From a virus: DNA of 26,010 nucleotides. A program made the position numbers and the translations under genes. The DNA lies in the IMG/VR virus record IMGVR_UViG_3300031539_000274, positions 1 to 26,010 of that record, one strand, 5' to 3'. This document shows positions 5,680 through 18,048 of this stretch, piece by piece (positions within the stretch are counted from its first letter, which is position 1; each line of letters starts with the position of its first letter). The notes beneath the pieces were generated by a model that was given only the letters and a program-made list of their open reading frames with translations, did no database searches and was not told the origin of the DNA.

Positions 5680-6027
5680 ATGATCCAGGACAAGCTCCCC
5701 CAAATAAGCCTCGAGGCGATTAAGATCCCGGCTTATGGCGTATTTATGCTTCTGGTTTTGGATAAGGTGCTTGCCTGGACGCTGAAATGGAAAGACAGGA
5801 AGGCGGATAAAAACTGCAACGGCAAGGACGGGAAGAAGCCTGTCTGCATGGAATCGGTCCCCTGGGCCCTCCATTCCAAGACGACTGAGGATCTGAAACT
5901 CTGCGCCGAGAAGACTGTCGACCTTCAGACGAAGACGCTGATTGCCCTGCACAGACTGGCCGACGCCGGCGAGGCACAGGCGACGGCGATCCAGGGCCTG
6001 GGAGAGAAGCTCACCAAGCAGCCATGA
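5680..6027 (+). CDS. single-pass membrane protein, unknown
   Basis: A 115-aa protein with an amphipathic N-terminus, one membrane segment at about residues 15-34 (YGVFMLLVLDKVLAW), a basic stretch with two Cys, and a long helical C-terminus. The ribosome binding site is weak. Its stop overlaps the next ATG (ATGA), tying it to the ParB/PP-loop fusion gene. Membrane plus long helix resembles small phage holin or i-spanin proteins, but no family motif is seen. Confidence 0.55.
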   Translation: MIQDKLPQISLEAIKIPAYGVFMLLVLDKVLAWTLKWKDRKADKNCNGKDGKKPVCMESVPWALHSKTTEDLKLCAEKTVDLQTKTLIALHRLADAGEAQATAIQGLGEKLTKQP

Positions 6028-7199
6028 ACATCATCACCGTCCCGATCAACCAGGTTGTCCCCTGGGAGAAGAACCCGCGTGGGATCCTGAAAGCCGACTA
6101 TGAGGATCTCAAGGAGGAGATCCGGGAGCTCGGCGTCTATAAACCGCTCATCGTCTATCAGGAGAACGGGCGATACGTCGTCCTTGGCGGGAATATGAGA
6201 ATCAGGGCGCTCAGAGAACTCGGCCATGAAGAGGTTGACATCTCCGTCGTGGAGCCGAAGTCGGAGGCCGAGAAGATCAAGTACGCGCTCTCGGACAATG
6301 ACAGGAAGGGCTTCTATGAGGAGGAAAAGCTCGCGGAGCTCCTCATGCCCCACCTCGAGGAGATAAATCTCGAAGTTTATAAGGTCGACATCGGCGAGTC
6401 CATCAACCTAAAAGAATTATGGGAGCAGTTCGGGCCCAGCCAGGCGGAGGATAGCCTTGAGCAGAAAATCACGCTTCCGGATCCGCCCCAGGACGTCCTG
6501 GAATTCGCGGGCCGCTTTGAGCATATCGTCGTCGAGTTCAGCGGCGGGAAAGACTCCCTCCTGGCACTCCTCTGGACGAAAAACATTTGCGAGAAACTTG
6601 AGCGGCCCTTCGAGGCCCGATTCGTCGAGACGGGCGCCGAGTTCCCGGACCTCGTGAGTTATATCTGCCGCTTCTGCAAGGATCAAAAGATTACCTTCCG
6701 GCTGATCATGGCCAAGCAGAACATCGTCGAGCATTACGTCAAGAAAGGGAAATGGCCTGACACGATCTTCCGGGACTGTCAGCATCGGTTTATCAATGAG
6801 GTCCTCGACTCGGCCACGGCAACGCCGGCGGATAAGACTCTCAAGATCCGCGGGGGCCGGCCCGAACAGAAAGTGGCCCGGACGCCGAAAGCCGCCTACA
6901 CGACCAACGCCCAGGGCTTTCACCTCTACGCGCCATATTATGAAATGCCCTTAACCGAGTATGCCGAGCTCTTAAAGAAAGTCCAGCCGCTGCTCTGGCC
7001 AGGCTATGCCCAGGGATTCAAGCGGACCGCCTGCTGGATATGTCCCTTCCAAACGCCTGAGCAGTGGGAGGCGATGAGGAAGTATTATCCGCCGCTATGG
7101 GAAGAGATGAGGATCCTTTCGCAGCGGCTGAAGTACCCGCGGCACGCGGGAGACAGCACGATCCGAAGGTTTTGGCGCTATTGGAATAAATTCCGTTGA
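6024..7199 (+). CDS. ParB-like nuclease domain fused to PP-loop PAPS-reductase/DndC-like domain
   Basis: 391 aa. Residues 1-110 are a ParB/sulfiredoxin-fold domain: KNPRG at 16-20, a KPLIV strand and GGNMRIRAL at 55-63. After a linker, residues 165-390 form an adenine-nucleotide alpha-hydrolase (PP-loop) domain with SGGKDS at 173-178, ETGAEFPD at 202-209, CRFC at 215-218, Cys252 and CWIC at 337-340, as in PAPS reductase, DndC and IbrA. The separate proteins IbrB (ParB-like) and IbrA (PAPS-reductase-like) are a known pair in prophages; here they are one chain. Likely chemistry is ATP activation of a substrate with sulfur or phosphate transfer, possibly nucleic-acid modification; target unknown. 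Its 3' end overlaps the minus-strand DUF523 gene by 22 nt. Confidence 0.85.
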   Translation: MNIITVPINQVVPWEKNPRGILKADYEDLKEEIRELGVYKPLIVYQENGRYVVLGGNMRIRALRELGHEEVDISVVEPKSEAEKIKYALSDNDRKGFYEEEKLAELLMPHLEEINLEVYKVDIGESINLKELWEQFGPSQAEDSLEQKITLPDPPQDVLEFAGRFEHIVVEFSGGKDSLLALLWTKNICEKLERPFEARFVETGAEFPDLVSYICRFCKDQKITFRLIMAKQNIVEHYVKKGKWPDTIFRDCQHRFINEVLDSATATPADKTLKIRGGRPEQKVARTPKAAYTTNAQGFHLYAPYYEMPLTEYAELLKKVQPLLWPGYAQGFKRTACWICPFQTPEQWEAMRKYYPPLWEEMRILSQRLKYPRHAGDSTIRRFWRYWNKFR

Positions 7200-8150: not shown

Positions 8151-8164
8151 ACGGAGTGAGAAAG

Positions 8165-8677
8165 GTGTCTGGACGCGGTAGGAAATCTAAGTATCAAGAT
8201 GATTTTCCCCTCCGGGCCGAAGGCCTGGCGCGGAGTGGCCTGACCGACAGGCAGATCGCGATAAAACTCGGGATCTCGAAGACCGCGTTCTATGAATACC
8301 TAAAGTTCTATACGGACTTTGCGGACTCCTTAAAAAGGGGGAAGGCGCCGGTCGACACCAAGGTCGAGAACGCGCTCCTCAAGCGGGCCCTGGGCTATGA
8401 GCTCGAGGAGGTCATGACCGAATATGACATTGCCGGCAAGAAGAGGGATGAGACGGCTCTCCCGTCGAAGGTCCGGAAGACGAAGAAGGAAGTCCTCCCC
8501 GACGTCACGGCGCAGATCTTCTGGCTCAAGAACCGGCAGCCGATGAAGTGGCGCGATAAGCAGGAGCTCGAGCACAGCGGCCAGATGACCATGATCAACG
8601 TCATCTCGGCGGTTCCCCGGCCGGCCAAGCCGGATCCGGCGGCCGCGGCAGCGTTGGCTTCTGGGAAGGACACATGA
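8165..8677 (+). CDS. terS: terminase small subunit
   Basis: 170 aa from GTG 8165; the GTG at 8156 is in frame but GGAG at 8153-8156 fits the later start. The N-terminal third is a helix-turn-helix (LTDRQIAIKLGISKTAFYEYL) for DNA recognition; the middle is helical (oligomerisation), and the segment WLKNRQPMKWRDKQ is characteristic of phage TerS proteins. The C-terminus is Ala/Pro-rich. TerS forms a ring that picks the packaging site and controls TerL. It heads the packaging and morphogenesis genes, and its stop overlaps the next start (ATGA). Confidence 0.85.
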   Translation: MSGRGRKSKYQDDFPLRAEGLARSGLTDRQIAIKLGISKTAFYEYLKFYTDFADSLKRGKAPVDTKVENALLKRALGYELEEVMTEYDIAGKKRDETALPSKVRKTKKEVLPDVTAQIFWLKNRQPMKWRDKQELEHSGQMTMINVISAVPRPAKPDPAAAAALASGKDT

Positions 8678-8886
8678 GAGTCTCCTGGTCCCTGACAGTG
8701 GCCATCCGGAAGCGGCTCCTCCGGCTCCGGATGAAGAGGGCACTATCGCTTCTCCGTGGGATGGACTCGGCGATGGGGCGGCTCGGCTGGTCCCGGCAGC
8801 GCCAGCGGGCCTTCTGGCGCGCGATCTCGAAGGCGCACGGCCTGCCCGAGGAGCTCCTCGAGGGGCTCGCAAGGAAAATGGAATGA
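8674..8886 (+). CDS. small basic protein between terminase genes
   Basis: A 70-aa Arg-rich helical protein with ATGA overlaps on both sides, which argues that it is translated. It has no recognised domain. The position between TerS and TerL suggests a packaging accessory, but a simple spacer ORF cannot be excluded. Confidence 0.55.
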   Translation: MRVSWSLTVAIRKRLLRLRMKRALSLLRGMDSAMGRLGWSRQRQRAFWRAISKAHGLPEELLEGLARKME

Positions 8887-10241
8887 TCGGGGCTCAGGAG
8901 ATCACGGTCGACCTCTCCCAGGTCTACGACCCGCGGCGGAACGGGAAGCAGCTCCTCTTCCACCGGGCCCCGGAGACCTACAAGCTCTTCGGCGGCGCCA
9001 TGGGCGGAGGGAAGACGGCCGCGCTGATAAATGAGGGGATCGCCCTGAACTTCGACTACCCGGGCAACTTCGGGTTGCTCATGAGGAAGACCTGGCCGTC
9101 ATTCCGGGACACGGTCCTCCCGCAACTCGAGCACTTCCTCGACCGGCGTCTGATCCGGGATTGGAATAGGTCGGAGAAGCTGATCGTGTACTGGAACGGC
9201 TCGAGGGTCCGCTATGGAGGCGTTGGTGAGCATCCGGACGACTGGCAGAAGTTCATGTCCGGGGAGTACGGCTGGATCGCACTCGACCAGGCCGAGGAGT
9301 TCACGGAACACGAATTCCTGATGCTGGCGACCCGGCTGAGGCTCAATCTGCCCGGGCTGCGGCCATTCTTTCTCCTCTCCTGCAACCCGACGGATAGCTG
9401 GATCAAGCAGCGTTTCATCGAAAGTTCGCAGCCGGACCATATCTTCATCCCGTCGTTCTGGACGGATAACATCGCTAACCTGCCGGCGGGATACATCGAG
9501 AGAATGAAGCAAATCCTGCCGGTGGAGCTGCAGGATAGGTACTTGAGGGGCGACTGGAGCGGAATAGCTGATCCCCTGGCCGTTTTCCCCTGCCTCAAGG
9601 TCAAGGAGGCCATGGAGCGGAAAGTCGAGCGGGGATTGCCGGTAGTCATCGGGGTCGACGTGGCCCGGGGCGGAGATGATGAGTCCGTCCTGGCACTCCG
9701 GGAAGGGGGGAGACTTGAGATCTTCAGCCAGGCCCAGGGGCATGACACCATGCGGACGACGGGGGAGGTCTGGCGCTGTGTCCAGGAGCGCATCCTGCCG
9801 GCCTGGGGAAAGGCCCTTTCCGAGGTCACGGTCCAAGTGGACGCGATAGGCCTGGGGTCTGGAGTCGTGGATCGCCTCAGGGAGGTCCGGAAGGAAAAAG
9901 AGGCGGCCTTCAGGGAGCAAGGGTTCGAAATAGCCTTTAGGATCATCGAAATCATCGGCAGCGCCCGGGCGCGCAACCGCAGCCGGTTCAGGAACCTCCG
10001 GGCCGAGGTCCATTGGGGGGCCCGGGAGGCACTGGACTGGATCGAGCTTCCCGGGGACTCTGAGCTCTCGCGTCAGCTCCTGGGGATTAAGTACCGGCTA
10101 AATTCGGCTGGCCTGATTGAGATCGAGCCGAAAGAGGAAATCAAGAAGCGGCTTAAAAAGAGCCCGGACCGGGCCGAGGCGGTCATCTACGCCTTGGCCG
10201 AAGTCAAGCCTAAGGGAGTGGGTCATGTCTGCACAGGTTAA
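8883..10241 (+). CDS. terL: terminase large subunit
   Basis: 452 aa. N-terminal ATPase: Walker A GGAMGGGKT at 37-45, Walker B WIALDQAEE at 131-139 with the catalytic Glu, and coupling motif SCNPT at 166-170. C-terminal RNase H-like nuclease: GVDVARGGDDES with Asp259, VQVDAIGLG with Asp320, and SPDRAEAVIYAL near 427-438 with the third acidic residue. All elements needed for DNA translocation and cutting are visible. Close to the usual length for PBSX-like large terminases. It overlaps the portal gene by 17 nt. Confidence 0.95.
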   Translation: MIGAQEITVDLSQVYDPRRNGKQLLFHRAPETYKLFGGAMGGGKTAALINEGIALNFDYPGNFGLLMRKTWPSFRDTVLPQLEHFLDRRLIRDWNRSEKLIVYWNGSRVRYGGVGEHPDDWQKFMSGEYGWIALDQAEEFTEHEFLMLATRLRLNLPGLRPFFLLSCNPTDSWIKQRFIESSQPDHIFIPSFWTDNIANLPAGYIERMKQILPVELQDRYLRGDWSGIADPLAVFPCLKVKEAMERKVERGLPVVIGVDVARGGDDESVLALREGGRLEIFSQAQGHDTMRTTGEVWRCVQERILPAWGKALSEVTVQVDAIGLGSGVVDRLREVRKEKEAAFREQGFEIAFRIIEIIGSARARNRSRFRNLRAEVHWGAREALDWIELPGDSELSRQLLGIKYRLNSAGLIEIEPKEEIKKRLKKSPDRAEAVIYALAEVKPKGVGHVCTG

Positions 10242-11655
10242 GATCGGAAAGCCGAAAGGCAGGGTGTTCGTCTATACTTCGATGAAGGAGCTCGTCCCGG
10301 GCGAACGGCTCAGGGAATTCGAGATCCAAAAGGACTCCAAGCAGGTCCGCGAGGAGGAGAAGCTCTTCCTCCATGAGGGCCTCGTCAGCCCGCCGTTCCC
10401 GCCGGAGTCTTTCCTCGAGCTCCAGCAGTCGAATGTCTATTTCGACCGCTGCGTCTGCCGCATCGCCGAGGACGTCGCCGGCCGCGGCCTGCGGCTCGTC
10501 CTGGCCGAGGGGAAAGAAGAAATCGAGGAGGAGAAAAAGGCCATTCAACAGTTCCTGGCCAAGCCCAATAAAAACCCGAACGAGAGCATCCGGGGCATTA
10601 TCCAGGCCTGCGTCGAGGATTTGGAGGTTGTCGGCTGGATGGGGATGGAGGCCGTGCGCAGCCTCGATGGTCTGGTCAATGAAGTTTACCATGTTCCAGC
10701 TCATACTCTCCGGGTCCATAAATCGCGGAAGAAGTACCGCCAGGAGCGCGGCCAGTCCAAGGTCTGGTTCAAGGCCTTCGGCGTCAAGGAGGATATCAAC
10801 AAGGACACCGGGAAGCAGGAAAAGGGCCTCGATGAGAAGACGCGGGCGAATGAGCTGATCTATTACAAGCACTATTACGCCAGGAGCGATTATTACGGTC
10901 GCCCCCCCATCCTCGGTGCCGTGGGATCCGTGCTGGCCCTGATTGGGATTCGGGACTATAACCTGGCCTTCTTTGAGAATTATGGCGTCCCGGCCGCCAT
11001 CATCGTCCTGGAGGGCGACTGGGAACCAGGCTCAGACCAGAAGCTTAGGGAGTTTCTCGATACCGAGATCCGGCGGACTGAGAATGCCCACAAGACCATG
11101 GTCCTGGTCACTCCCGAGGGCTGCAAGGCCACCTGGATACCGCTGGTCACGGAAGTCAAAGAGGCGGCGTTCAAAATTTACCTCAAGATCCTGCGCGATG
11201 AGGTGCTGGTGGCCTATTCGATGCCCGGTTATCGGATCGGCCTCTCGGAGACGGGTTCGCTGGGCGGGTCGACGGCCGAGGAATCGACGAAAATCTATAT
11301 CTCCTCGGTCATTGACTCGCTTCAACTGACCATGGAAGAGATCCTGAACCAGATCCTTAAAGAGAAGGGGCTGGTGAACTACCGCGTCGAATTCATCGAC
11401 CTGGACGTCCGGAACATAGACGCCGAGGTCGACCGATTCGAGAAGCTCTTCGGCATGGGCGCGATCACTCCCAATGACATCCGCAACCGCCTGGACCTGG
11501 GCGACCCATACGATCTCGGGAATCAGTATTACGTGGATAACCGTTATATCCCGGTCGGCGGCGCCGAGCTCGAGAAGGCCGACCAATTCTCGATCGCGCT
11601 CAACGAGCTTCGGAGGACGGCCAGGGCGATCCTCGATGAACGAAAAACTTCTTAG
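10225..11655 (+). CDS. portal protein (PBSX/HK97-like)
   Basis: 476 aa from ATG 10225 behind GGGAG; the longer reading frame from 10117 lies inside terL and is not used. Typical portal features: N-terminal segment with FLELQQSNVYFDRCVCRIAED, a wing with YYKHYYARSDYYGRPPI, the conserved FFENYGVPAAIIVL stretch, and GSTAEEST near the crown. Portals form the dodecameric ring at one capsid vertex through which TerL pumps DNA. The start overlaps terL and the end overlaps the Mu F-like gene. Confidence 0.9.
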   Translation: MSAQVKIGKPKGRVFVYTSMKELVPGERLREFEIQKDSKQVREEEKLFLHEGLVSPPFPPESFLELQQSNVYFDRCVCRIAEDVAGRGLRLVLAEGKEEIEEEKKAIQQFLAKPNKNPNESIRGIIQACVEDLEVVGWMGMEAVRSLDGLVNEVYHVPAHTLRVHKSRKKYRQERGQSKVWFKAFGVKEDINKDTGKQEKGLDEKTRANELIYYKHYYARSDYYGRPPILGAVGSVLALIGIRDYNLAFFENYGVPAAIIVLEGDWEPGSDQKLREFLDTEIRRTENAHKTMVLVTPEGCKATWIPLVTEVKEAAFKIYLKILRDEVLVAYSMPGYRIGLSETGSLGGSTAEESTKIYISSVIDSLQLTMEEILNQILKEKGLVNYRVEFIDLDVRNIDAEVDRFEKLFGMGAITPNDIRNRLDLGDPYDLGNQYYVDNRYIPVGGAELEKADQFSIALNELRRTARAILDERKTS

Positions 11656-12466
11656 GCTCCACGACGCCATCACGGCCTTCCTGAAGCGGACGGGCTTCAG
11701 GGAGCGTCAACGCGTCCGCGCCCGTAGCGGAGAACGGGAGGCCCGCGCCAGGCTTCAGCGGGGCGTGCTGGAATGGCTGCAGCATATTCGGCGGGAGGCA
11801 GTTGTCCTCGAGGAGCCCGATGAGGAGAAGATCCTGGACTGGAAGGCGATAGAAGAGAAGGGCGGGCGCCTGCTCCGGGCCGCTTATCTCGACATTCTGA
11901 AAGCCCAGGCCGAACGGGCCGGCCTGTCGAAGCAGGAGGCCGCCGGGGTCCTCAACACTCAGGCCATCACCTGGGCCGAGCTCTTCGCCGCCCGCATCAT
12001 AAAGCAGATCATCGAGCAGACTAAGCGGGCGGTCCGCTCGATCATCGTCTTGGGTCTGAAGCGGGGACTCTCCATGTCGGCTATCAATATGCAGCTCCGG
12101 CCGATCATCGGGCTCAACGATCGCCTGGCCGGCGCGGTCAGCCGCTATTCGACCGAGCTCTTTACCCGGCCGAAGTGGGCCGGCCTGACCGATGAGGAAC
12201 GCTCCGGCCGGATCGAGCGGTATGCGCAAAAACTCCAGCGCTACCGGGCGGATAATATCGCCAGGACGGAAACGGCACACGCCATGGATGAGGGGACGCT
12301 CCTCCGTTTTGAGGAGCTCGGGGTCCAGGAGGCGGAAATTCTCGCCGCTTCCGGCTGCTGCGGCGATTGTGCCGCGCTGGACGGCCAGCGCTATCCCCTC
12401 GCCGAGGCCCATGGCATCCTACCCGCCCATAACTGCTGCCGCTGCGCCTGGGGGGCAGTGACATGA
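11636..12466 (+). CDS. Mu gpF/SPP1 gp7-like minor head protein
   Basis: 276 aa from ATG 11636, overlapping the portal end by 20 nt with a weak ribosome binding site (translational coupling likely). The C-terminal domain matches the Phage_Mu_F pattern: RADNIARTETAHAMDEG, then SGCCGDCAALDGQRYPL and a final Cys-rich segment with HNCCRCAWG, probably a metal site. The N-terminal part is helical. These proteins sit inside the capsid near the portal and help with head assembly and early infection. Four nt overlap with the giant fusion gene follows. Confidence 0.85.
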   Translation: MNEKLLRLHDAITAFLKRTGFRERQRVRARSGEREARARLQRGVLEWLQHIRREAVVLEEPDEEKILDWKAIEEKGGRLLRAAYLDILKAQAERAGLSKQEAAGVLNTQAITWAELFAARIIKQIIEQTKRAVRSIIVLGLKRGLSMSAINMQLRPIIGLNDRLAGAVSRYSTELFTRPKWAGLTDEERSGRIERYAQKLQRYRADNIARTETAHAMDEGTLLRFEELGVQEAEILAASGCCGDCAALDGQRYPLAEAHGILPAHNCCRCAWGAVT

Positions 12467-15400
12467 AGATAGAGGACATCACCGGAAAATCAATCCGCGA
12501 GGTCACGGACCGGGAGCTCTATAACCTTCGCTTGCGCAGCATCCAACTGTGGGAAAAAATCTATAAGAAGAAACGCGGCCAGGAGGTCGCCGACTTCCTG
12601 AGCCATTACCGGGACCTTGTCGCCGAGATGAATCGGCGCGGGATCGCCCGTCAGAACGTCTTCGAGCTGGACCGGGAGCTCATGAAGGGCATCCTCTACC
12701 GGCTCCTTCCGCAGATGCTCGATGAGCTGGTCTACGTTCCCGATTTCGTCTCCCTCGGCGGAAGTTTCGTCCGCACGCCGAAGCAGGCCCACGACATCGA
12801 CCTCATCATCCGCAAGGATAGCCCGGATCTGGGCCTGACGCTCAAGCTCGGCCGGGTCCTGGAAAAGTATCTCGGGCCGGCGCTCCATTTCGTCTTCTCG
12901 CCGACGGGCCCCCATAGCAGCTACATTCCGCTCTTCGATCTGGTCTTCCGGCCCAAGCAGAGCCTGGTCAAGGTGGAGATCCAGGACATCCTCAAATCGG
13001 AGAACGGCTATTATGCCGGCCTGGACATCTGGGATGAGGGCCTCATGGTCGATAACCTGGCCGTCCTCCAGGCCCTGGCGCCCGGGAGTGTGCTCGACCT
13101 GGGCTGCGGGACGGGGAAGTTTCTCCAGGCCTGCCGGAAGGCCGGCCGGCGGACCGTAGGGATCGACAACAATGACACTGCCCTTTCCTACTGTGCCATG
13201 CGCGAGATCGAGACGCGCAAGCTCGACCTCGACACTCAGGAGATCCCGCCGGACCTCGGCGAGTTCGATAACGTCACCGCGATCCATGCCCTGGAGCATT
13301 TCCGGGATCCGCGCCGCATCGCGGACCTGGCCAGGGAAGCCGCCCTCAAGAAGGTCATTTTCCTGATCCCCCTGGGCGATCGTCAGGACCCTTCACATCA
13401 GCAGGCCTATAAATCGGTCGACGATCTTCAAGCCGGCCTGGGGGAGGGCTGGCAGGTAGTCGAGATCGAGGAAACACACTGCGCCCTGGCCATGTATGAC
13501 AAAATCGAGAAGGCAGGTCAGCTCAAGCCCCTCCAACGGTTCATCCCGCTCAAGACGGCCAGCGGATACTCGATGCAGGAAGAGTTCGACATCGAGACCA
13601 TGTGGGAGAAATGGGCCAAGAGTTACATCGACGAGGGGATCGACCTCGTCGTGCAGAAAAAGTTCTCCGGCTGGCGGACCGTTCTTGAGCTCGATGAGAA
13701 GGGCCGGACCCTGATATACTTCGAGGATACGAAGAAGGACCGGAGCGGCCAGTTCGAGGAGCTGGCGGAGGAGCTCAAGACTATCAAGCAGCCGGTCATC
13801 CTGGATGCCGAGATCGAAGGCATCAGCCTCCAGGGAAAGCCGATCCCCCGGAAGGACATCTCCGGCTGGGGCGGGAACATCAAGGTGCCCGTGGAGTTCA
13901 CGACCGCAGCCGGCATCAAGGGCCGCTACGTGGTCCATGTTTTTGACATTCTTTACCTGGGCGCCGCGGATGGAGGCGGGGACCTCCACGGTCTGGCTTA
14001 CCGGGAGCGACGCGAGACATTAAAAAAACTATTCGGCGCCTTCGACTTCAAGCTGATCAAGCTCATCCCGGAGACGGTCGTCTCCACGAAATCGGCCTTC
14101 ATCCGGGCCGTCGGGCGCGTCAGCCGGCTGCCCGGATCGGAGGGCGCCGTCATCAAGACCGTGACGGGTGACTATCCCCTGACCGGCCAGACCTCGACCT
14201 GGGCGAAGATCAAGACCGTCGTCGAGTTCAAGGTGCAGGTCCTCGAGCGGATCCCGGTCAAGGGTTCGAATGACATCTTCAACTATCGAGTCGGCTGCCT
14301 CCGGGCCGGGAAAGTCGTCGAGATCGGAAAGACCATCAACGTCCAGCTCAAGGCTTCCGAGGGCGCCGTCCTGACGATCACGGCCCAGGAGATCATCCCG
14401 AAAATCCAGGATGGCAAGCTTGAGATCTCTGCCGTCGTGCCGGGGGTCCAGGACATCGACCTCGACCGGAAAACCCCGGAGACGGCGGAGGAGATTGCCC
14501 GGAGGGCCTATAAGGCCGGGATCCTGCAGCTCACCGCGGAGCTCGAGCGTGAGCTCAGGGAGCTCAAGATCCTGAAGGCCGAGGAGGGCACCGGAGGCGA
14601 GTTCGGGAACCTTGACTTCGAGGCCGGCACGAAAGGTAGCGGCGTCCTGCAGATCCATATCATGGGCATCGAACCGGACCGGGCGGAGGCGCTTCGGGCG
14701 GCCTCGTCCCGGATCATGGTCACCCGGGGAGACCTGAAGAAATTCCAGCGCCTCCTCCTCGAGACTGTCGGCGAGCAGGGCGCTCATCTTGACATCCGGC
14801 TCCGGCCGGCCGGCAAGGACTTCTGGGAAGGCGGCGAGGTGATGCTCGGAAACCTCACCGGGCTCGCCAAGTTCATCGAAGCGGATGAGGGCCGGAAGCT
14901 CCGGTTCGCCTGGAAGCAGAGCCGGGCCGGGGAGGAAAAGACGCCGGTGGTCCGGGGCCCGCTGAGCTGGCTTGAGATCGGAAAGAGAAAGGTCGAGCTC
15001 TTCGCGCCCGGGGAGATCGGCGCGACGACGAACCTGCACGCGGCCATGATCGCCCTGGACTCCTTCACCTGGGAGCTCTACCTGGCCGATGAGCACGCCA
15101 AGAAGATCCATTTTGCGAACCGCTATCTCAAGGGGAACTGGCTCTTCGCCTCTGTCCCGGTCAGCGCCGCCGGCAAGCGCGGAGAGCGGGTCTGGATGAT
15201 GTCGCGGCTTGCCGAGGATGATCACAAAAAGGTCGCCAAGGAGCTCACGGCGGCGGAGCAGAAAGATTATGACGAGGAGACTGAGCGCATCCGGGAATCG
15301 AAGAAAACACCGGAGGCCCAGAAGCCCCACCAGTTCAGGCGGGCGAAATGGACGCATCCGAACGGCCATCCCCGCTGCCTTATCTGCGGCGACGAGGAAC

Positions 15401-15903
15401 CGATAGGCCTGGTCTGCAATATGCCGGCGGAGTGGTATGGAAGGCGCGAATGGGATGACGATACCGGCTGGGCAGAGGAGCGCAAGAAGCTCCGGGCCGA
15501 CGGCATCATTAAAGCGGAAGGCCCGCCGGCCAAAGACTTCAAGAAGGAGCTCGAGGTCTTCATCACTAAAGAGGACGAGCACATTATCGGCGGCATCGTC
15601 TATGAGCCGGACATCGTCGACAGCCAGGGCGACTCGGCCACTACGGAGGAGATCCGTCGGGCGGCCTTCGACTTCATGGCGAACATCCAGCGCTTCGACG
15701 TGCGCCACTCCGAGCAGGCGAACCCGCAGATCAAGGTACTCGAGAGTTATATTGCCCCCCAGGAGCTGCTGATCAACGGCCATCGCATCCGGAAAGGGTC
15801 CTGGTACATGACGCTGCGTGTGCTGGATGAGCAAGTCTGGCGCGATATAAAAGCCGGAAAGCTCACGGGATTTTCCATTTTCGGCACAGCCTTCCCGGGT
15901 TAA
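12463..15903 (+). CDS. giant fusion: nucleotidyltransferase, methyltransferase, ATP-dependent ligase, PE-like region, XkdF prohead protease
   Basis: 1146 aa. In order: helical N-terminus (1-85); Pol-beta-type nucleotidyltransferase with GGS at 99-101, DID at 111-113 and third Asp159; class I SAM methyltransferase with DLGCGTG at 212-218, GIDNND at 233-238 and HALEHF at 275-280; ATP-dependent DNA ligase with KFSG at 400-403 (normally KxDG), VFDILY at 493-498, DAEIEG at 448-453, EGAVIK at 560-565, WAKIK at 580-584, then an OB fold to about 660; a region at about 728-920 resembling LigD phosphoesterase (HLDIR at 775-779, GNWLF and WMMSRL); Cys/His cluster at 969-985; XkdF-type protease at 1030-1146 with His1082 and Ser1138 in GFSIFG. 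Its place between the Mu F-like and scaffold genes is that of the prohead protease. The protease presumably releases the other enzymes in the head. Alternative: the enzymes act in the cytoplasm before assembly. Confidence 0.85.
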   Translation: MKIEDITGKSIREVTDRELYNLRLRSIQLWEKIYKKKRGQEVADFLSHYRDLVAEMNRRGIARQNVFELDRELMKGILYRLLPQMLDELVYVPDFVSLGGSFVRTPKQAHDIDLIIRKDSPDLGLTLKLGRVLEKYLGPALHFVFSPTGPHSSYIPLFDLVFRPKQSLVKVEIQDILKSENGYYAGLDIWDEGLMVDNLAVLQALAPGSVLDLGCGTGKFLQACRKAGRRTVGIDNNDTALSYCAMREIETRKLDLDTQEIPPDLGEFDNVTAIHALEHFRDPRRIADLAREAALKKVIFLIPLGDRQDPSHQQAYKSVDDLQAGLGEGWQVVEIEETHCALAMYDKIEKAGQLKPLQRFIPLKTASGYSMQEEFDIETMWEKWAKSYIDEGIDLVVQKKFSGWRTVLELDEKGRTLIYFEDTKKDRSGQFEELAEELKTIKQPVILDAEIEGISLQGKPIPRKDISGWGGNIKVPVEFTTAAGIKGRYVVHVFDILYLGAADGGGDLHGLAYRERRETLKKLFGAFDFKLIKLIPETVVSTKSAFIRAVGRVSRLPGSEGAVIKTVTGDYPLTGQTSTWAKIKTVVEFKVQVLERIPVKGSNDIFNYRVGCLRAGKVVEIGKTINVQLKASEGAVLTITAQEIIPKIQDGKLEISAVVPGVQDIDLDRKTPETAEEIARRAYKAGILQLTAELERELRELKILKAEEGTGGEFGNLDFEAGTKGSGVLQIHIMGIEPDRAEALRAASSRIMVTRGDLKKFQRLLLETVGEQGAHLDIRLRPAGKDFWEGGEVMLGNLTGLAKFIEADEGRKLRFAWKQSRAGEEKTPVVRGPLSWLEIGKRKVELFAPGEIGATTNLHAAMIALDSFTWELYLADEHAKKIHFANRYLKGNWLFASVPVSAAGKRGERVWMMSRLAEDDHKKVAKELTAAEQKDYDEETERIRESKKTPEAQKPHQFRRAKWTHPNGHPRCLICGDEEPIGLVCNMPAEWYGRREWDDDTGWAEERKKLRADGIIKAEGPPAKDFKKELEVFITKEDEHIIGGIVYEPDIVDSQGDSATTEEIRRAAFDFMANIQRFDVRHSEQANPQIKVLESYIAPQELLINGHRIRKGSWYMTLRVLDEQVWRDIKAGKLTGFSIFGTAFPG

Positions 15904-15918
15904 AATCCTCTTCCTGGG

Positions 15919-15990
15919 CGTCCGTTTCCCCCGCCTATTCGGGTTTTACCCCCGGCTTTATTGACTCCGAATAGCCCGCTGTCTTATGAG
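15919..15990 (+). repeat. intergenic element, copy B of a two-copy set
   Basis: Collinear with 4276-4346: CGTCCGTTTCCCCCGCC, TTCG, TTTACCCCC, TTGACT, CCCGCT and CTTAT in the same order and nearly the same distances. Both copies begin 14-16 nt after a stop codon and precede an operon. Conservation across the C-rich upstream part exceeds what a bare promoter would need. Confidence 0.75.
15961..15990 (+). promoter_or_regulatory. putative promoter for the capsid/tail operon
   Basis: TTGACT (15961-15966), 18-nt spacer, TATGAG (15985-15990), with the same -35 and the same spacing as at 4317-4346. The start would fall near 15997, giving a leader of about 170 nt with a hairpin before the scaffold gene. 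Confidence 0.5.
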
Positions 15991-16026
15991 AGGAGTGTAC
16001 TCGGTGCGATTTGAGGACGCTTCGGG

Positions 16027-16068
16027 TCCATGCCCGCCGGGTCGCCGGTTCGAGCCCAGCGGGATGGA
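16027..16068 (+). other. strong hairpin in the scaffold-gene leader
   Basis: TCCATGCCCGC (16027-16037) pairs with GCGGGATGGA (16059-16068) with one bulged G; GGGT (16039-16042) and GCCC (16054-16057) extend the stem, leaving an 11-nt loop. No T-run follows, so it is not a normal terminator. It may protect or regulate the late mRNA. Confidence 0.5.
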
Positions 16069-16165
16069 CGAGACGCCCAGCGAGTCCCTTCTTACCGATC
16101 GGAGCTCGCCAGGTCGGCGACGCTTAAATCAGACCAAAAAGCTTTCCGTGTGGAGGTGTGCGGCG

Positions 16166-16783
16166 ATGCCCAAGCTCAAGGACATCCAGGTCAAGCTGGT
16201 CAGTATCGTCGAGACGCCGGCCATCCGGAGGAAATTCTGTGTCATCAAGGAGGCACAAAGCATGGACAAGTTGATCGAACTTCTGAAGTCGATCCTGGGC
16301 GAGGTTCCCGCCGAGGCCGTCGAGTTCCTTAAAAAGCTCGATGCCGCGGCGGCCGAGGCGCTGAAGAAGGCGCTCGAGATCCTGAGCAAGTACGTCGGCG
16401 ACTTCCCTGACGACGTCAAGGAAGCCGTGGCGATCCTGGCCCGGGCCGCTTCCTCTGGCTACGGTTATCCCAAGCCAAAGGAGGGCGCGGCCGACGATGA
16501 GAAGGCGAAACTGGAGCGCGAAAAGGAATGCTCCGATCTCGAGAAACAGTTCCTCGGGAAGGCGACCACCGCAATCGCCGATGCCATCAAGAAGGTCACC
16601 GATGACCTGACGGGAAAGGTGGGGACGATCCAGGCCGACCTTAAAAAGTCGGCGGATGGCCTCGAGGCCCGCCTCAAGAAGATCGAGGAGACTCCCGGGA
16701 TCAAGAAAGGCCTGGAGGGCCAGGACGGCGACCCGAAGCCATCCAAGTGGCCTTCATTCTTCTCTGAAGGAAGTGAAAGATGA
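16166..16783 (+). CDS. scaffold-like protein
   Basis: 205 aa from ATG 16166 after GGAGG at 16152-16156. The first 25 residues (KLVSIVETPAIRRKFCVIK) resemble the opening of XkdF-like proteins, where a SLV..PA motif is common. The rest is highly charged and helical, with Ala/Lys-rich coiled-coil segments at about 35-90 and 130-180 and a Pro/Gly-rich C-terminus. Position just before the capsid gene and after the protease gene, plus composition, indicate a scaffold that guides capsid assembly and is then cleaved. The stop overlaps the capsid start (ATGA). Confidence 0.65.
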   Translation: MPKLKDIQVKLVSIVETPAIRRKFCVIKEAQSMDKLIELLKSILGEVPAEAVEFLKKLDAAAAEALKKALEILSKYVGDFPDDVKEAVAILARAASSGYGYPKPKEGAADDEKAKLEREKECSDLEKQFLGKATTAIADAIKKVTDDLTGKVGTIQADLKKSADGLEARLKKIEETPGIKKGLEGQDGDPKPSKWPSFFSEGSER

Positions 16784-18048
16784 AAACCGCAAAGGAGCTG
16801 CTCTCTAAGGCAGCAATCAAAAAGGGCATTTTCCCCGTTGACATCAGCTTCTCAGCCGAGGAGGCTGACCGGTTCCTGGACTACATCATCGACGAGAGCA
16901 CCTTCAAGGACCATGCCCGGTTCGTGAAGATGACGAAATCCACACGCAACGTCCGGGCGATCGGCCTGGGCACGAGCGCCATCATGTACCCGGCGGCCGC
17001 GTTCGACGACACCAAGGTCAAGAAATCGACCGTGGCCAACCTGATCACCCTGACCTCGCAGAAAGGCAGGGGGGGGGCCTGCGTCTACGATGACGACCTC
17101 GAGGACAACATCGAAGGCGAGGCCTTTGTCGATCATCTCCTGAAGATGATCGCGGCCCAGGTTGTCAACGAGCTCGAGGCGGCCTATTACCTGGGCACCG
17201 CCGTCCCCCAGGGCGTGACGCCCAAGACGATGCTCGACATCTGGAACGGCTGGCGGTACCGGATCCTCAATCAGACCAATATGGTCACCGGCGGTGCCTC
17301 CATCCTGGATGCTCGCAACACGAGTGACTTCGCCCTGGCCAACGGCTATATCGCCGAGCAGAACACCGAGCCGCCCTACAACTGGGAGTTCAAATTCTCC
17401 AAGATGCTGAAGAAGCTGCCGTCCAAATACAAGAAGCTCGGGCTCGAGAACTTCCGCTTCTTCATCAATGACCAGCTCGTCCAGGACTATATCGACGCCC
17501 TGGCTTCCCGGTCCACGATCATCGGCGACCAGGCCATTATCGGCAAAGGCGAGCTCAAGTTCGGGACTGTCCCCCTCATCCCCACGCCCCTGATGCCGAT
17601 TGACTTCCCCGTTCCGGTTGCCTCAGGCGGCTCGACGACCGTCGACGCCGACTCTGCCGCCGGCCAGAAGGTCCTCAATACCCTTGCCACCGACACTTTC
17701 ACCGTCGCCGATTACGTCCACGTCACCAAGGCCCTGCTCGAGTATAAATCCGAGATCTGCAAGATCGCATCCATCCAGGCGGGAGTCTCCCTGACCATGG
17801 TGGACAACCTGGAGTGGGTGCACACGGGGACGGATGCCGAGACGGTCAAAGAGGTGACTCTGGACGGCGCCGACGGGATCCTGACGCACAAGGAGAATCT
17901 CGTCATCGGCCTGCAGCGCGATATCAAGATGGAGACCGAGCGGAAGGCGTCCGAGGAAGCGACCTACTTCTACTATTCCATCCGCTCGGACATCGCGGTC
18001 GAGAACCTGAACGCCGTTATCTTCATCAAGAACCTCAAGGCCAAGTAA
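16780..18048 (+). CDS. major capsid protein (HK97 fold expected)
   Basis: 422 aa. N-terminal helix, then a segment typical of phage capsids (YIIDESTFKDHARFVKMTKSTRNVRAIG marks the E-loop/N-arm region near 35-62), an inner helix with FVDHLLKMIAAQVVNELEAAYYLG, FFINDQLVQDYIDALA and the C-terminal strand ENLNAVIFIKNL. Length and position after scaffold are those of HK97-type major capsid proteins of the XkdG-like group. No delta-domain cleavage site can be read from sequence alone. Confidence 0.85.
   Translation: MKTAKELLSKAAIKKGIFPVDISFSAEEADRFLDYIIDESTFKDHARFVKMTKSTRNVRAIGLGTSAIMYPAAAFDDTKVKKSTVANLITLTSQKGRGGACVYDDDLEDNIEGEAFVDHLLKMIAAQVVNELEAAYYLGTAVPQGVTPKTMLDIWNGWRYRILNQTNMVTGGASILDARNTSDFALANGYIAEQNTEPPYNWEFKFSKMLKKLPSKYKKLGLENFRFFINDQLVQDYIDALASRSTIIGDQAIIGKGELKFGTVPLIPTPLMPIDFPVPVASGGSTTVDADSAAGQKVLNTLATDTFTVADYVHVTKALLEYKSEICKIASIQAGVSLTMVDNLEWVHTGTDAETVKEVTLDGADGILTHKENLVIGLQRDIKMETERKASEEATYFYYSIRSDIAVENLNAVIFIKNLKAK

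Follow-up and report, generated by a model that had tools for sequence, protein, structure and literature searches.

A single viral gene encodes an 1146-aa chain in which four nucleic-acid or methyl-transfer enzyme domains are joined to a protease. The order is nucleotidyltransferase (NTase), methyltransferase, LigD-like ligase with its OB domain, LigD-like phosphoesterase, zinc-knuckle-like linker and XkdF; the fusion protein is an analogue of LigD with a Pol-beta-type NTase, and it is more than an XkdF protease. The identities of these modules are near certain, the exact activity of the NTase excepted. As to what they do together, we consider it an evenly balanced proposition that the chain is a head-carried polyprotein for healing and sealing viral DNA ends, analogous to LigD and built into the prohead protease. 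Dozens of uncultured viruses have the same chain, which suggests, rather than proves, a DNA-repair kit built into their particles.

Composition and integrity of the fusion protein

The window analyzed here is a complete IMG/VR record (IMGVR_UViG_3300031539_000274) of 26,010 bases. The fusion gene is placed between the MuF/portal and scaffold/capsid genes, and its ATG overlaps the stop codon of the MuF gene (ATGA). The features are as follows, with positions in the window and, where given, residues of the fusion protein:

8156..8677, + strand: terminase small subunit (phrog_309, 2.7e-50)
8883..10241, + strand: terminase large subunit (Pfam, PHROGs)
10117..11655, + strand: portal protein (Pfam, PHROGs)
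11474..12466, + strand: MuF-like minor head protein (Pfam, PHROGs)
12463..15903, + strand: whole fusion gene, 1146 aa, an uninterrupted ORF
12463..12987, + strand: domain 1, residues 1-175, helical N-terminus and Pol-beta-superfamily nucleotidyltransferase (G100 S101, D111, D113, D159)
13006..13497, + strand: domain 2, residues 182-345, class I SAM methyltransferase, MetW-like (Pfam Methyltransf_23, 1.7e-14)
13558..14217, + strand: domain 3, residues 366-585, nucleotidyltransferase domain of an ATP-dependent ligase (Pfam DNA_ligase_A_M; catalytic Lys400)
14218..14478, + strand: OB domain of the ligase, residues 586-672 (family alignment, HMM built here)
14626..15216, + strand: domain 4, residues 722-918, LigD-type 3'-phosphoesterase (AF2 model and PDB fold matches)
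15346..15417, + strand: zinc-knuckle-like linker KWTHPNGHPRCLICGDEEPIGLVC, residues 962-985 (from sequence; also in relatives L005 and L114)
15553..15894, + strand: domain 5, residues 1031-1144, XkdF/Peptidase_S78_2 prohead protease (Pfam, PHROG; His1082, Ser1138)
16166..16783, + strand: scaffold-like protein, its likely start being the internal Met61 of the ORF at 15986-16783 (phrog_3017 positions 3-34)
16780..18048, + strand: major capsid protein (phrog_1623, 1.6e-47)

The 1146-aa ORF, first proposed in a sequence-only reading of this DNA, is real, intact and conserved, and the residues which that reading had singled out (G99-G100-S101, D111, D113, D159, DLGCGTG at 212-218, His1082 and Ser1138) are all where it had placed them. 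A chimera or frameshift artefact could be ruled out, as the identical domain order recurs in many independent contigs, and the low dN/dS between close relatives (~0.03-0.14 in each domain that could be compared) likewise argues against a chimera. Judged by these ratios, every compared domain of the fusion is under purifying selection. In the one near relative whose gene looked broken (L114), there are runs of N within the ligase region. Antisense to the fusion gene is a 601-aa open frame (window 14029-15834, - strand), which is probably a by-product of base composition.

The methyltransferase, ATP-dependent ligase and XkdF protease named in the sequence-only reading all have Pfam matches above curated cut-offs. 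The Methyltransf_23 match spans residues 198-340, and the methyltransferase is an optional module. The DNA_ligase_A_M match (1.5e-11) covers residues 393-584 and is accompanied by a PHROGs match to ATP-dependent DNA ligase, and the best NCBIfam ligase matches are to DNA ligase D (TIGR02776, 3e-12; TIGR02779, 1.9e-10), with scores far under the equivalog cut-offs and with ends at residue 624, inside the OB domain. Lys400 is kept in 55 of 56 family proteins, in which motif I is mostly KxNG rather than KxDG. The Peptidase_S78_2/XkdF match (residues 1034-1143, 4.2e-28) reaches 98.3 bits against a cut-off of 24, the match to the head maturation protease family PHROG 3017 (phrog_3017) has an E-value of 2.5e-39, and His1082, Ser1138 and Asp1053 are kept in 72/72 proteins. 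Protease, ligase and phosphoesterase all have catalytic residues that scarcely vary across the family.

The N-terminal domain contains the G-S...D-x-D...D motif of the Pol-beta superfamily. There is no Pfam match in the NTase sequence of the 1146-aa protein itself, while the NTases of relatives match DNA_pol_B_palm (best 4.1e-6) and NTP_transf_2, and the family profile matches DNA polymerase beta weakly (E 0.22). With the predicted structure (pLDDT 89.8), Foldseek finds weak matches to MNT-type NTases alone (E>0.1), MNT antitoxins that AMPylate proteins among them, and nothing in the PDB at E<0.1. No archaeo-eukaryotic primase-type polymerase is matched in the 1146-aa protein by Pfam or NCBIfam. 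The Pol-beta identity claimed earlier is thus upheld by motifs and weakly by profile and fold, and we regard the domain as a Pol-beta-superfamily-like NTase with putative polymerase activity.

The domains named in the sequence-only reading stand, but its list of enzymes lacked the one at residues 722-918, a stretch whose conservation ranks with the highest in the family. In the 1146-aa protein these residues match no Pfam or PDB sequence profile, and Pfam LigD_N has no direct match anywhere in the chain. An AlphaFold (AF2) model made from 32 relatives (pLDDT 90.7) has as its top three Foldseek matches in the PDB 3n9b, the LigD phosphoesterase of P. aeruginosa, and 3p43 and 3p4h, both archaeal LigD phosphoesterases. 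Because these are the sole matches at probability 1.00, we assign residues 722-918 to a LigD-type phosphoesterase. Among the relatives, the ORF after the NTase-ligase ORF of L111 matches LigD_N (PF13298) directly (2.6e-15), and the divergent members L087, L098 and L099 match it weakly.

Gln730, His732, His775, Asp777 and Arg779 of the phosphoesterase are invariant in 42/42 proteins and correspond to Gln40, His42, His48, Asp50 and Arg52 of LigD. According to passages of PMC8656161, His42, His48 and Asp50 of LigD bind Mn, and the catalytic set consists of His42, His48, Asp50, Arg52, His84 and Tyr88. The last two positions are Gly832 and Trp836 in the viral protein, and as this pair is replaced, the viral phosphoesterase may act differently or be impaired. 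His878 is invariant across the family; that it substitutes for the second catalytic pair of LigD is only a guess.

The fusion to an XkdF-type protease within a morphogenesis operon, another point of the earlier reading, is borne out by the Pfam and PHROG matches and by synteny with head genes. A scaffold homolog lies downstream in 75, and a capsid homolog in 63, of the 78 family loci with room for them, some of these loci being the same contig. The scaffold-like protein at 16166-16783 begins with the N-terminal segment of other phages' XkdF proteins (the phrog_3017 positions listed above), as if a split had placed protease and scaffold in separate genes in this virus. Elsewhere in the window, a 391-aa protein (6024-7199, + strand) joins a ParB N-terminal domain with a PAPS-reductase domain, and a second ParB-domain protein, with a long C-terminal part that has no family match, lies at 2-1615.

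A candidate cleavage motif, [ILVM]-x(1,2)-K-A, occurs 90 times in linkers versus 44 +/- 6 in shuffled linkers. It was dropped as a cleavage site, as its rate is nearly equal in linkers and in domain interiors (5.4 versus 4.6 per 1000), both of its recurrent sites fall at ligase-domain ends and it is not common to capsid or scaffold N-termini.

The protein family and its cargo

Three scans of viral contigs yielded about 110 family loci, and the domain HMMs built here identified 59 non-redundant proteins with NTase and XkdF in one ORF. A search for homologs with the same order, proposed in the earlier reading, succeeded: the whole order (NTase, methyltransferase, ligase, OB, phosphoesterase, XkdF) is shared by 22/59, while ligase and phosphoesterase occur without methyltransferase in 13, NTase and XkdF only in 19, and odd architectures in the remaining 5. 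Ligase and phosphoesterase are the most constant cargo, and in almost every member XkdF comes last, at the C-terminus. The minimal NTase-XkdF proteins (L005, L072, L076 and others) are about 330-630 aa long, and the NTase active site is broken in most of them. In three loci (L004, L029 and L032) the chain is divided into two ORFs; an ADP-ribosyltransferase seen by eye at the end of the NTase ORF of L004 (8001-9254) was not confirmed by Pfam and was rejected. The family is almost absent from isolated phages: across 50,697 phage records, the NTase gave a weak match and ligase-phosphoesterase a partial match, and both were found just in the archaeal virus ANMV-1. Relatives are located on bacterial and archaeal MAG contigs, although the binning of viral contigs is unreliable.

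Other relatives carry D12 DNA-adenine methylases (L035, L019, L094, L104, L106 and L115), uracil-DNA glycosylase (UDG; L087, L098, L107 and L109) or metallo-beta-lactamase domains (L037, L045 and L111), and the cargo therefore leans toward DNA repair and protection. One such ORF, of 2177 aa (L035:943-7473), has three matched D12 stretches (213.7 bits in all) in addition to a class I methyltransferase, ligase, phosphoesterase and XkdF. In L111 (3429-5966), the ORF after the NTase-ligase ORF has two phosphoesterase copies between a metallo-beta-lactamase and a weak prohead-protease match.

These data bear on whether the substrate could be RNA. The NTase, methyltransferase, ligase and phosphoesterase might act on tRNAs cleaved by host anticodon nucleases, healing and sealing them after the model of phage RNA ligases with RlaP-type NTases or of bacterial Pnkp/Hen1, and the module set does resemble RNA-repair sets (RlaP NTase with RNA ligases, as described in parts of PMC7824862). 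Weak RNA_ligase matches are also present in L045 and L062; in L045, however, the RNA_ligase match (2.7e-5) compares with 2e-28 for DNA_ligase_A_M, the highest-scoring matches for the ligase of the fusion are to DNA ligase D and further DNA ligases, and the cargo added in relatives is UDG and DNA-adenine methylases. We consider RNA repair very improbable.

Coupling of the modules and proposed function

Counting Glu as acceptable at its first two positions, the Asp triad of the NTase is intact in 45/45 proteins whose ORF also encodes a ligase and in 3/19 of those whose ORF does not (Fisher 2e-12). This contrast is confounded by descent, since the NTase tree has just two independent ligase losses (pairs) on well-supported branches, too few to give a formal tree test of the coupling any power; on this tree the ligase label changes 7 times and the triad 6 times. 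Joint action of NTase and ligase would predict a coupling in this direction. Where the ligase is missing, the NTase domain seems to be kept for another, perhaps structural, role. One could also regard the NTase as chiefly a structural adaptor for the prohead protease, with the enzymes in the middle as replaceable hitch-hikers, given that 19 proteins consist of NTase and XkdF only and that the domain is retained in the 16/19 ligase-less proteins whose triad is broken. Ligase-bearing proteins, however, lie on both sides of the deepest split in the NTase tree, so that the minimal form looks derived, and purifying selection on the middle domains is strong; we find this explanation hardly credible.

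The same coupling weighs against the idea of a polyvalent protein injected for counter-defence or to modify the host, by which an MNT-like NTase or the methyltransferase would modify host proteins or restriction targets and repair would be secondary. The AMPylating MNT antitoxins among the weak fold matches of the NTase are consistent with such a role, the DNA-adenine methylase modules of relatives would block restriction, and polyvalent proteins are a known theme (parts of PMC5512222). However, the NTase active site follows the presence of the ligase rather than that of other cargo, and it is ligase and phosphoesterase that are most constant, leaving counter-defence as the main role improbable.

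We propose instead that the C-terminal XkdF protease would bring the chain inside the assembling prohead, as its fusion and synteny suggest, where the protease would mature the head and possibly divide the chain into individual enzymes. Some of the enzyme may then remain with the packaged genome and enter the cell alongside it. Going by families, folds and catalytic residues, the phosphoesterase would clean the 3' ends of viral DNA to 3'-OH, the Pol-beta-type NTase would add nucleotides and the ATP ligase would seal, the result being repair or circularization at breaks, gaps or genome termini. A set of packaged enzymes working on the ends of phage DNA, as put forward in the sequence-only reading, is the best-supported reading, and it gains from the LigD-like phosphoesterase, from the DNA-modifying and repair domains of relatives and from the coupling of NTase residues to the ligase. 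The modules form a LigD-like healing and sealing set, tied to an enzyme that works in the prohead; a head-borne kit to repair the viral genome is the most economical reading. From the sequences, a DNA-repair function is reasonably likely, while delivery of the enzymes in the virion could go either way. The fullest form of the proposal remains tentative, a little short of even: that uncultured tailed viruses of bacteria and archaea, as a widespread group so far undescribed, have a capsid-borne LigD-like break-repair machine, made with the prohead protease at its C-terminal end and set free by that protease, for genome healing, circularization or protection on entry.

The main rival places the same chemistry in the cytoplasm at packaging time. 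The enzymes would be cut off during assembly or earlier and would repair nicks and gaps in concatemers so that packaging is not blocked, and the fusion to the protease would just set timing, stoichiometry or location at the portal. In T4, DNA ligase helps packaging. The division of the chain into two ORFs in three loci is in keeping with this rival, as is the NTase-ligase-phosphoesterase protein of ANMV-1, which lies beside the portal although the annotated prohead protease is a different protein, but the position of the protease as C-terminal domain in nearly all members is left unexplained. A comparison of L061 with L020 (35% for XkdF, 88% for the ligase) is the clearest case in which the protease domain was swapped while ligase and phosphoesterase stayed alike, suggesting that a tie to a protease is itself selected. 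We therefore regard cytoplasmic late repair as unlikely.

Relation to known systems

Like LigD, the fusion combines a ligase, a 3'-phosphoesterase and a polymerase-like nucleotidyltransferase in one chain, and the phosphoesterase fold and metal triad match. It is not a true LigD: its NTase is of Pol-beta type, whereas LigD has an archaeo-eukaryotic primase-type polymerase; the phosphoesterase site is changed, without His84/Tyr88; and a search of 34 records, many of them fragmentary, gave no Ku, with a host Ku still possible. The viral chain is further distinguished by its fusion to a methyltransferase and a prohead protease and by its place in a virus head operon.

The XkdF proteases of Lactococcus phage 28201, psiM100 and Rhizobium phage RHph_Y1_11 have the same protease domain as the fusion, and their genes are similarly placed near portal/MuF and capsid, most clearly in 28201. 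As the earlier reading had remarked, prohead proteases are normally small, and annotated XkdF genes in four isolates encode about 212-406 aa; in contrast, the protease of the fusion ends a multi-enzyme chain of 1146 aa, and its scaffold is a separate gene. With at least two unrelated enzymatic domains in a single virus-encoded chain, the fusion also resembles the polyvalent proteins of Iyer et al. 2017 (PMC5512222), which, in the portions of that paper considered here, likewise combine unrelated enzymes with an embedded peptidase, exchange domains as mosaics and have recurrent NTase and N6A-methylase domains. The peptidase there is of MPTase type rather than XkdF, the cargo of the fusion centers on LigD-like ligase and phosphoesterase, and the same portions of the paper do not include this combination of domains. 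The fusion thus fits the broad polyvalent-protein idea with new cargo and a different peptidase.

In mycobacteriophages Omega and Corndog, according to passages of PMC4351075 and PMC7719229, a phage Ku and the host LigD circularize the genome. The reaction we propose would likewise be of NHEJ type and act on the virus's own genome ends after entry, but these phages bring Ku and borrow LigD, whereas the fusion virus encodes a LigD-like chain and a Ku was not found. About 3,000 actinobacteriophages surveyed had no NHEJ components, as stated in part of PMC7719229. Within the open literature, as covered by titles, abstracts and selected passages and with subscription papers and preprints mostly outside, we found no description of the fusion architecture.

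If the proposal is true, a virus-encoded LigD-like chain is tied to an enzyme built inside the prohead, where known phage cases borrow the host LigD, and fusion to XkdF would be a natural signal for loading cargo enzymes into tailed-virus heads. The loading of DNA-repair enzymes into capsids, and the closing or mending of linear viral genomes in poorly known hosts, become testable, and genes annotated merely as 'ATP-dependent DNA ligase' or 'head maturation protease' gain a functional hypothesis.

A close counterpart in a named virus is the ANMV-1 gene AJP62006, which has the order NTase-ligase-OB-phosphoesterase and adjoins a portal-like gene, but lacks the methyltransferase and a fused protease, the protease being annotated separately at 27069-28388. 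This gene (L119:3200-5800), annotated as 'ATP-dependent DNA ligase', is an NTase-ligase-phosphoesterase chain, and the 'MutT-like phage hydrolase' upstream of it resembles, by eye, a portal protein.
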